From Pseudomonadota bacterium (GTDB lineage: Bacteria > Desulfobacterota > Desulfobulbia > Desulfobulbales > SURF-16), in contig JAHJKA010000031.1 of the NCBI GenBank assembly GCA_018822545.1, positions 124,001 through 188,000 of the forward strand: DNA of 64,000 bases. The letters run 5' to 3'. The position numbers and the translations under genes were made by a program. The notes beneath the pieces are model-generated. The model saw nothing but the letters and a program-made list of their open reading frames with translations. It had not been told where the DNA came from and searched no databases. This document shows, piece after piece, positions 2 through 9,694 of the stretch (position 1 is the stretch's first letter; the number at the start of each line of letters is the position of its first letter).

Positions 2-1213
2 ATTGCCGAATTTGGCCTTTGGCTCTATGCCATCGTCGGCATACTGATCACAGCACTCATGCAGTCAAGCTCAGTGAGCATCGCCATCGTTCTCACGGCC
101 TTAAACAGTAGCCTGATTACCTTTCCCATGGCTGCTGCCATGGTTATCGGTGCCAATATCGGCAGCACGGTCACTGTTTTGCTCGGCTCCATCGGCGGCA
201 TCCAGCCCAAAAAAAGGGTGAGCACCAGCCATCTTATCTTCAATGTCGTCACCGGTGCCGTGGCCTTTGCCGCTCTCAAACCCTTGACCTGGGTGGTCAG
301 CCGTTTTATAGACACCACCGCCAACAGCGTCATGGCCCTGGCCCTCTTTCATACCCTGTTCAATGTTCTGGGCGTGCTGCTCTTTTTACCCTTTATTGGC
401 ATACTGGCCCGGTACCTGATCAAAATTTTCCCGGACCACAAGGAAAAACTCACCGTCTTTCTGGGCAATACCCCCACCCAGGTGCCGGATGCGGCCACTG
501 CCTCTTTACGCAACGAGATTCTCCATCTTTTTGAGGAATGCCAACTCTACAACCTGCGCTCCTTCAAGATTGACGAAAAGCTTGTTTTCGACCATCCCCT
601 GCCCTTTGAAAAAAATACCAGCAAACGCTTTCGCCTTGAAGACCAGTACGACAACGTCAAACTCCTCCACGGCGAAATTTTTGAGTTTTACGCCAAACTT
701 CTCAATGAAAAGCTGGAAGAAGTCGAGGCCAAGGAGCTGGAACGCATCATCTTCGCCTCCCGTAATATCATGAACTCCATCAAAAACATCAAAGGCGTCC
801 GTCACAATCTCGAGGAGTTTGATGCCTCGGATGACGACCACCTCAACACCCAGTATAAATCATTCAGGCGGCGCCTCATGGAGCTGTACCATGACATCAA
901 CCGCTTTCGGGAGCTTGACAACAAACAGGAACAATACAGGGAACTGCTGCGTTCCATTGTCCACATGGAACAGGCTGACAAAAATTTCATCCAGGAAACC
1001 TTAAGAATGACGGCCTCCGGAGCCCTCAAGGAAATCGACATTGCCTCCCTGCTCATGGTCAACCGTCTCTTTAACCAGGCCTGCCGTCTGCAGATCTTTG
1101 CCCTTAAAGACCTGCTGCTTGGCCAAGAACAGATCCACGATTTTGATCATGCCCTGGAAATGAAGTCCTTTCTCGATGAAGAAAAGGCCAAAGAAGTGGA
1201 ATTCATTAAATAA
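2..1213 (+). CDS. Na+/phosphate cotransporter family protein, 5' end cut by window edge
   Basis: Inner-membrane transporter of the Na/Pi-cotransporter (PNaS, NptA/YjbB-like) family with a C-terminal PhoU-like helical domain. The frame is open from base 2, so the gene starts before the window. The visible part opens with a hydrophobic segment and the family signature TALMQSSS, the QSSS motif of the inverted-repeat transport core. A second glycine/alanine-rich membrane segment (GANIGSTVTVLLGS) follows, then two further helices up to about base 410. From about base 480 the protein is soluble, charged and helical, as expected for the PhoU-like tail (ELYHDINRFRELDN). The stop lies 3 nt before a small TusA-like selenoprotein candidate, so the two are probably co-transcribed. 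The family normally moves phosphate with sodium; the actual substrate cannot be read from the sequence. Confidence 0.85.
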   Translation: MAEFGLWLYAIVGILITALMQSSSVSIAIVLTALNSSLITFPMAAAMVIGANIGSTVTVLLGSIGGIQPKKRVSTSHLIFNVVTGAVAFAALKPLTWVVSRFIDTTANSVMALALFHTLFNVLGVLLFLPFIGILARYLIKIFPDHKEKLTVFLGNTPTQVPDAATASLRNEILHLFEECQLYNLRSFKIDEKLVFDHPLPFEKNTSKRFRLEDQYDNVKLLHGEIFEFYAKLLNEKLEEVEAKELERIIFASRNIMNSIKNIKGVRHNLEEFDASDDDHLNTQYKSFRRRLMELYHDINRFRELDNKQEQYRELLRSIVHMEQADKNFIQETLRMTASGALKEIDIASLLMVNRLFNQACRLQIFALKDLLLGQEQIHDFDHALEMKSFLDEEKAKEVEFIK

Positions 1214-1216
1214 CAG

Positions 1217-1435
1217 ATGAACAACGAACCCTTTGACTTTCGCGGTGATTGCTGAAAAGGCTTTAAGGACGTAAGGTTACGTCTGCGCCATACTCCTGCC
1301 GGAGGTCAATTCAGCTTTATCTGTGACAACAATATTGTCGGCAAAATGGACAGGGTCATCGCCATTAACGATGGTCAGACCATCGCCAAGAAAGACAGCG
1401 GCAATGACACTCTCTTTGTGGTGGAAAAAACCTGA
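1217..1435 (+). CDS. Candidate selenoprotein, TusA/SirA-like small protein with in-frame UGA (Sec13)
   Basis: This 72-codon reading frame is interrupted once, by TGA at 1253-1255; read as selenocysteine it continues to a normal TGA at 1433. The product starts MNNEPFDFRGDC-U-KGFKD and has the length and pattern of a TusA/SirA (UPF0033) fold: an initial D-x-R-G strand, the active site, an amphipathic helix, and a final beta strand ending in VVEKT. In TusA the catalytic Cys lies three residues after the conserved Gly (G-x-x-C). Here G-D-C-U puts Sec at exactly that position and adds a Cys just before it. A SECIS-like hairpin follows the UGA at the right distance. The start ATG is 3 nt after the Na/Pi transporter stop; no strong Shine-Dalgarno is visible. 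TusA proteins carry persulfide sulfur; a selenol version could act in sulfur or selenium transfer, which is inference. The alternative is a pseudogene with a nonsense mutation, made unlikely by the hairpin and the alignment of the codon. Confidence 0.72.
1259..1289 (+). promoter_or_regulatory. Bacterial-type SECIS hairpin for UGA recoding
   Basis: Directly downstream of the in-frame UGA (1253-1255) the bases GACGTAA (1268-1274), GG (1275-1276) and TTACGTC (1277-1283) form a perfect stem. With the last A-U pairs open, the apical loop is AAGGUU on a GACGU/ACGUC stem. GGC (1259-1261) can pair with GCC (1287-1289) below an internal loop. The well-studied E. coli fdhF SECIS has an AGGUCU loop with its GGU at positions 22-24 counted from the U of UGA; here GGU falls at positions 23-25. 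The match in loop composition and distance is the main reason for reading the TGA as selenocysteine. SelB binding is inferred. Confidence 0.68.
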
Positions 1436-8212: not shown

Positions 8213-8536
8213 ATGGCAAGTGACAAAATTGTCCAAATTACCGATGATAATTTTAAAGAAAAGGTTCTCAAGGCCGCCCTGCCCACCCTTGTTGATTTCT
8301 GGGCCCCTTGGTGTGGTCCCTGCAAGGCCATCGGCCCTATGATTGACGAGCTTGCTGCTGAATATGAAGGCAAAGTGCAGATCTGCAAAATGAATGTTGA
8401 CGACAGTCCTGAAACCCCAGGCAAATACGGCATCCGCGCTATTCCTACCCTGATATTTTTCAAAAACGGTGAGGTTGCAGATCAGGTGACCGGGGCTGTA
8501 GGCAAACCACAACTGGTGGCCATGCTCGCCAAATAA
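8213..8536 (+). CDS. trxA: Thioredoxin
   Basis: 107-residue cytoplasmic thioredoxin with the canonical active site WCGPC (Cys34 and Cys37) and the cis-proline loop AIPT. Full length for the family. The start ATG has a clear ribosome binding site (GAAGGAG) 8-9 nt upstream. It would reduce protein disulfides, kept reduced by the thioredoxin reductase encoded just downstream at 8756. The two genes are separated by a 219-nt gap holding a palindromic repeat element, so co-transcription is possible but the element may act as a processing or stop site. Confidence 0.96.
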   Translation: MASDKIVQITDDNFKEKVLKAALPTLVDFWAPWCGPCKAIGPMIDELAAEYEGKVQICKMNVDDSPETPGKYGIRAIPTLIFFKNGEVADQVTGAVGKPQLVAMLAK

Positions 8537-8755: not shown

Positions 8756-9694
8756 ATGATGAGGAATACTGATCACCAACTTATTATTGTCGGCGGTGGG
8801 CCCGCCGGCCTCACGGCCGGGCTCTATGCAGCCAGAGGCATGGTGGATGCCGTCCTTCTTGAAAAGGGCGCCACCGGCGGCCAGATCATGCAAACCGACT
8901 GGATCGACAATTATCCCGGCTTTCCGCAAGGGATCTCCGGCTTTGACCTGTCTGAAAAATTTTCAGCCCAGGCCAAACGTTTTGATCTGAAGATCAAACA
9001 GGCAACAGTGACCAAGATGGACCTTGTCGGCCCCGTGAAAACCATCTACCTTGAGGATGGCACCACCCTCACCAGCCGGGCTGTCATTTTATGCCCGGGC
9101 GCCCGACCAAACCTGGTTAACATCCCAGGGGAAGATGTTTACCATGGCCGGGGTGTTTCTTACTGTGCCACCTGCGACGCTCCCTTTTATCGTGGTAAAA
9201 CCGTGGCCGTTATCGGTGGCGGCAATACTGCTGTTCAAGAGGCTGAATATCTCACCAAATTTGCCGACAAGGTCTACGTTATTCACCGCCGTGATACTCT
9301 GCGGGCCACAAAAATCGTTCAGGAAAAGGCCTTTGCCAACAAAAAAATTGAGTTTCTCTGGGACACCGTCCCCACTGAGGTTATTGGTGATATTCTCCGC
9401 GGGGTTATCGGCCTGGCCCTTAAAAATGTCAAAACCAAAGCAACCTCCACCATTGACCTGCACGGGGTCTTCGTCTTGATCGGTATCCGTCCCAATATGG
9501 AGACGCTGCCCTTGGATCAGCTTGATAACGACCAGGGCTTTATCCACACCAACACCGAGATGGAGACCTCGCAGCCCGGTGTTTTTGCCGCCGGCGATAT
9601 CATCTATAAAAACTTTCGCCAGGTTGCCAATGCCGTGGGTGAAGGCTGTGTCGCCTGTCTCTCGGCTGAGCATTACCTTGAAAATAACGTATAA
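8756..9694 (+). CDS. trxB: Thioredoxin reductase
   Basis: 312-residue low-molecular-weight flavoprotein thioredoxin reductase. The FAD-binding GGGPAGL motif is at residues 13-19, the redox pair CATC at Cys137/Cys140, the second nucleotide-binding motif GGGNTAVQEA follows, and the C-terminal FAD motif is GVFAAGDI. It would pass NADPH electrons to thioredoxin, whose gene lies just upstream. Two ATGs in tandem (8756 and 8759) can serve as start; neither has a strong Shine-Dalgarno. After the CATC motif the usual NADPH-binding basic residues are represented by HRRDTLRATK. Confidence 0.95.
   Translation: MMRNTDHQLIIVGGGPAGLTAGLYAARGMVDAVLLEKGATGGQIMQTDWIDNYPGFPQGISGFDLSEKFSAQAKRFDLKIKQATVTKMDLVGPVKTIYLEDGTTLTSRAVILCPGARPNLVNIPGEDVYHGRGVSYCATCDAPFYRGKTVAVIGGGNTAVQEAEYLTKFADKVYVIHRRDTLRATKIVQEKAFANKKIEFLWDTVPTEVIGDILRGVIGLALKNVKTKATSTIDLHGVFVLIGIRPNMETLPLDQLDNDQGFIHTNTEMETSQPGVFAAGDIIYKNFRQVANAVGEGCVACLSAEHYLENNV

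Follow-up and report, generated by a model that had tools for sequence, protein, structure and literature searches.

TusA-type proteins carry sulfur, and YedF, a protein with a TusA domain, has been linked to selenium metabolism (PMC5322559). As regards selenoproteins, the authors of deep-Sep state that Cys-containing homologues now seem to exist for every known one, and that a selenoprotein lacking them may be filtered out by their method (PMC12013277). Desulfolithobacter dissulfuricans GF1 was one of the organisms on which it was tested, and no new selenoprotein was listed for it (PMC12013277); a member of the family described below (L054) lies in a single-contig genome (G071) that is putatively of this strain. 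In addition, neither TusA nor SirA appears among the 119 selenoprotein families tabulated in a 2026 review (PMC13188914), and no fitting model was found in NCBIfam 20.0, the scan of 21 members giving nothing convincing. The family is unlisted in the catalogues examined, which cover the open-access literature, and an earlier mention is possible. The omission probably stems from search methods which expect close Cys-containing relatives.

The window, that is, the whole 64,000-nucleotide stretch of contig JAHJKA010000031.1 that was analysed, contains near its start a frame which a previous sequence-only reading had described as 72 codons broken by one TGA, directly after a Na/Pi-type transporter gene. 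Both descriptions were confirmed (Table 1). The frame translates as MNNEPFDFRGDC-U-KGFKDVRLRLRHTPAGGQFSFICDNNIVGKMDRVIAINDGQTIAKKDSGNDTLFVVEKT-stop; its sole internal TGA lies at 1253-1255 and its terminal TGA at 1433-1435, with the residues DFRGDC-U-KGFKDVRLRL around Sec. Reassignment of TGA in the host has been ruled out, since the same gene ends in TGA. No match to the window protein was found in Pfam and NCBIfam, and an Rfam scan returned chance matches only. The read-through products of four other TGA-plus-hairpin candidates in the window were also scanned and none was supported as a selenoprotein, the sole Pfam match among them being a Na+/H+ antiporter that starts 3' of its TGA.

Table 1. 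Position and basis of the features at the locus (window coordinates)
Feature	Position	Strand	Description and basis
Na/Pi cotransporter gene	2..1213	+	Start outside the window; PF02690, E 1.3e-8; ends 3 nt before the ATG of the selenoprotein gene
Selenoprotein gene	1217..1435	+	72 residues and stop; internal UGA = Sec at residue 13; homologues with TGA at the same codon
Vicinal Cys12-Sec13 pair	1250..1255	+	TGC-TGA; Cys before Sec in nearly all family members
SECIS hairpin	1267..1284	+	Stem 1268-1273 with 1278-1283, loop AGGT 1274-1277, outer G-T pair 1267-1284; covariation and synonymous-recoding test

The gene belongs to a family of about 140 members spread across one bacterial phylum. A six-frame search found relatives in 84 of the 258 genomes of the host's class, nearly all with exactly one internal TGA, and the homologues extracted from this class have that TGA at one codon, within the motif D-[YF]-R-x-[DH]-C-U-x-G-x-x-D-V-R-x-R-L. 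When 395 genomes sampled across the phylum were searched with a profile, TGA was present in all 32 matches with E <= 1e-14; a narrower earlier profile had matched 26 genomes, again with TGA in all, and two further classes gave TGA in 18/18 and 24/24 matches. In the most distant branch the motif is [DN]-S-[RK]-x-x-C-U, and some genomes contain, next to the first type, a paralogue type with the sequence MRKRVRIDIDYRKDCUWG; each of the two forms one group in a tree of 142 rows, which rests on 69 columns only and carries no deep branching order. Sec-containing homologues are numerous, and the description of Sec-containing TusA-like proteins as rare in the sequence-only reading does not apply to the host's phylum.

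The family is also under purifying selection. Between codons +12 and +49 past the TGA, 150 of 151 members have no stop in the reading frame, while the two alternative frames are interrupted in 122 and in 117 members. Of the differences between members, 54% lie at codon position 3. Four single copies are broken, either by decay or by assembly error: L005 (sister genome G225) has a one-base shift after the TGA, L080 carries TAA in place of TGA, and L084 and L107 have later stops. Scans of viral contigs for relatives gave chance matches only, as judged from their broken frames.

A hairpin with a GG/GU loop was found at a fixed distance from the UGA in 133 distinct sequences. In the window its conserved core is GACGTA-AGGT-TACGTC (1268-1283), which begins 12 nt past the UGA. 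The hairpin announced by the sequence-only reading exists; its outer GGC/GCC pairing, which in the window begins nearer the UGA, is not conserved in the family. Considered across the 133 sequences, 97% of the hairpin cells pair, and sliding one side by 1-3 bases lowers this share to 24-60%. Changes on both sides (at least one each) were found at six of the seven stem pairs, as in AT to GC at one pair (18 sequences) and at another (48 sequences), or TA to CG (8 sequences), these figures being sequences counted and not events. Moreover, the mean hairpin energy is -8.0 kcal/mol, compared with -2.3 for synonymous recodings that preserve the protein, and in 110 of 115 members it lies within the lowest 5% of such recodings; two members (L109 and L114) are without a good stem at this position. 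Folded by itself, the 50-nt stretch of the window is ordinary (z -0.37), and the case for the hairpin rests on comparison because of this unremarkable local fold. On the family-wide evidence a chance origin was rejected, because the place of the hairpin is conserved, its stem carries compensatory changes and it is stronger than synonymous recodings.

The hairpin of the window also agrees with the published model for bacterial SECIS elements such as that of E. coli fdhF: 18 nt separate the UGA from the loop, and one of the first two loop positions is a G. The spacing in fdhF is similar to that of the window gene; the fdhF element carries a bulged U, which is missing from the short, near-palindromic GACGT/ACGTC stem of the window. 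Constraints on RNA and protein overlap here, as the stem codes for D-V-R-x-R-L. The retention of D-I-R-x-R-L in relatives without the hairpin suggests that the protein itself constrains these residues too.

Those relatives come from four genomes of a single genus; in them the Sec codon has become one for Leu, preceded by Thr or Ile. Their genes sit after a TatC-like gene, in the same place as those of their Sec-type relatives, and have kept the full-length frame with the hairpin gone. Together with L116, which retains the TGA without the Cys and without a good hairpin, they form one clade. Sec, Cys and SECIS have been lost together in this clade, as expected of a hairpin that serves Sec insertion. 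With the full-length frame kept, the scaffold of these five proteins (L099, L100, L117, L121 and L116) may act without the active pair.

An ordinary stop at the UGA would make of the locus a pseudogene, or a 12-residue peptide followed by a relic frame. Gene callers would in fact terminate there, missing the gene as the earlier reading had foreseen, and the energy of the hairpin in the single sequence is ordinary; nevertheless, several classes have conserved the TGA together with the frame and the hairpin, where that reading had allowed for a degraded frame without hairpin, and the Leu-type relatives retain the whole frame. A pseudogene was rejected on this conservation, and an ordinary stop is hardly credible. 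That the frame is a genuine selenoprotein gene is, for its part, practically certain.

The machinery for Sec insertion named by the sequence-only reading (selA, selB, selC and selD) is present in the host genome: selA, selB above the curated cut-off, a tRNA-Sec of 72.8 bits with anticodon TCA, and two selD genes above the cut-off (L242, G000:C5:14986-15903, and L241, G000:C50:39033-39959). One selD has an internal TGA, being probably a selenoprotein itself, and the other has none. This machinery was to be expected and is weak evidence when taken alone, because selA is present in 215 of the 258 genomes of the host's class.

The relation of the product with TusA was approached by several comparisons. 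The family profile aligned to the TusA profile with an hhalign E of 6e-4, and an earlier family profile had beaten 200 of 200 column permutations, by a narrow margin (19.6 against a maximum of 19.0). The best member scored 22.2 bits (E 1.2e-4) against PF01206, under the Pfam gathering cut-off of 28.6 bits, and the window protein had no match to this model. The CPxP motif is absent from the family, whose members read CU-x-G or similar. On these two defining points, cut-off and CPxP, the family stands outside PF01206 itself; of the term TusA-like, used from the outset for this protein, the distant kinship holds and the domain membership does not. In the phylum search the five best matches below the Sec forms had E values of 5e-5 to 1e-3; their G-x-x-C-P motif marks them as TusA-domain proteins, and three of them lie in YedF-like frames of 213-220 residues. 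As for structure, a single-sequence AlphaFold2 model (pLDDT 49) was uninformative on the fold, and a profile search of solved structures found no match.

A true selenoprotein unrelated to TusA, its likeness being the convergence of a small alpha/beta fold, would agree with the score below the Pfam cut-off, the lack of CPxP and the narrow permutation margin, and also with weak BRCT_2 matches, which are equally many (6 of 31 members, best E 0.0037). Such convergence is improbable, however, since the same relation emerges from several independent comparisons, almost collinear along most of the protein. Distant kinship to TusA is very likely judging from the profiles, and the product would apparently be a divergent branch of the TusA superfamily, with the predicted order beta-alpha-beta-alpha-beta-beta. 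When the alignment is made from the domain start, Sec falls on the TusA Cys (profile position 10), and when it is made on helix 1 the preceding Cys falls there instead; the Cys-Sec pair would accordingly lie at or next to the sulfur-carrying Cys of TusA, at the start of helix 1, with a register uncertain by one residue. The identification of the product as a selenoprotein distantly related to TusA is highly probable, a judgement that concerns its identity and leaves its chemistry aside.

Close Cys-containing homologues, the usual support for a bacterial selenoprotein, were not encountered, TusA itself being no more than a distant Cys relative. No close homologue with Cys for Sec was found in the genome searches of the class, the phylum and the two further classes, nor in plasmids, nor with the pattern DYRxDCC[KWR]G among 84,980 species, a narrow pattern that is the sole coverage of other phyla. 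The two contig pattern scans, neither of which turned up a relative, demand a Cys codon at the TGA site and are therefore a narrow negative search, for Cys forms only. The family may thus be a phylum-wide one without close Cys orthologues, in which a Cys-Sec pair on a TusA-like scaffold would perform sulfane-sulfur or selenium chemistry that is beyond cysteine, a proposal to which we give slightly less than an even chance. If it is true, the loss of Sec means the loss of the whole pair, as with Leu, and not a change to Cys, and such a Sec-only family would contradict the statement that the known selenoproteins all have Cys homologues (PMC12013277).

As to how the protein might work, we infer that Sec is incorporated in the cell, the UGA being decoded by SelA, SelB, SelD and tRNA-Sec under the direction of the hairpin. 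The selenolate would then attack a substrate such as sulfane sulfur, a polysulfide or another oxidised compound, which it would carry, the adjacent Cys would close a selenenylsulfide, freeing the reduced product, and a thiol or thioredoxin system could reset the pair. A function as small selenolate redox or sulfane-sulfur carrier is put forward tentatively, with chances somewhat below even. A thioredoxin gene (PF00085) lies at 8213-8536 of the window, followed about 220 bases on by a thioredoxin reductase-like frame (8756-9694, named from sequence); at some 7 kb from the selenoprotein gene they would be possible partners at most.

The main rival on mechanism is selenium or sulfur trafficking, in which selenide or sulfide, bound to Sec in a perselenide-type group, would be passed on to SelD, to an enzyme that modifies tRNA or to some other acceptor. 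TusA-type kinship favours it, TusA doing the same with sulfur, as does the tie of the TusA-domain protein YedF to selenium metabolism (PMC5322559) and the position of a paralogue-type (group-B) gene directly after selB, on the same strand, in three genomes. These belong to one genus, however, most genomes of the class have selA without the family gene, and five ordinary TusA proteins are already encoded in the host genome, so that trafficking is rather unlikely. Even less likely is a role of the Cys-Sec pair in binding or detoxifying soft metals or metalloids, for example mercury, arsenic or copper: CU motifs do occur in selenoproteins of organometallic chemistry such as SaoL and MbdU (PMC13188914), but genes for metal resistance or metal transport are not constant among the neighbours. 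The selenolate carrier remains our preferred reading.

In fact, no constant gene partner of any kind was found in the neighbourhoods of the family. The Na/Pi cotransporter recurs beside a member in another genome of the same genus (L124, G223) and is not conserved more widely. A polyphosphate kinase-like gene, a label based on sequence inspection, stands close to or immediately before eight paralogue-type members, and with the Na/Pi cotransporter before the window gene a link through phosphate is conceivable. Three members from other families of the phylum follow, on the same strand, a LysR-like regulator, so called from the start of its sequence; other work has proposed a LysR with a link to selenium (PMC9312934).

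With these results the selenoproteome of a selenoprotein-rich phylum gains a widespread family, and a blind spot becomes visible, namely that methods requiring Cys-containing or known Sec homologues drop such families. Furthermore, the standing question of which reactions depend on Sec, with Cys no substitute, becomes testable: at 72 residues the protein is small, a likely host has been cultivated, and there are natural relatives from which Sec, Cys and SECIS have all disappeared.

Compared with the known systems, the family shares with TusA (PF01206, formerly SirA/UPF0033) a length near 70 residues, the apparent order of strands and helices, and D-x-[RK]-G before the active residue, and differs from it in having Sec with a preceding Cys, no CPxP, a score below the cut-off and no close Cys form. 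With YedF, in which a TusA domain is followed by a DsrE-like domain, it has the TusA-type domain in common, YedF-like proteins being among the next-best profile matches; the window protein, however, ends after the TusA-like part, with no C-terminal DsrE-like domain, and is a selenoprotein, whereas YedF itself is not reported as one in the literature covered. Finally, Cys directly before Sec is shared with known CU-pair selenoproteins such as HgcA, SaoC, SaoL and KCU-star (PMC13188914), which belong to other domain families, whereas the present family is without an NCBIfam match.
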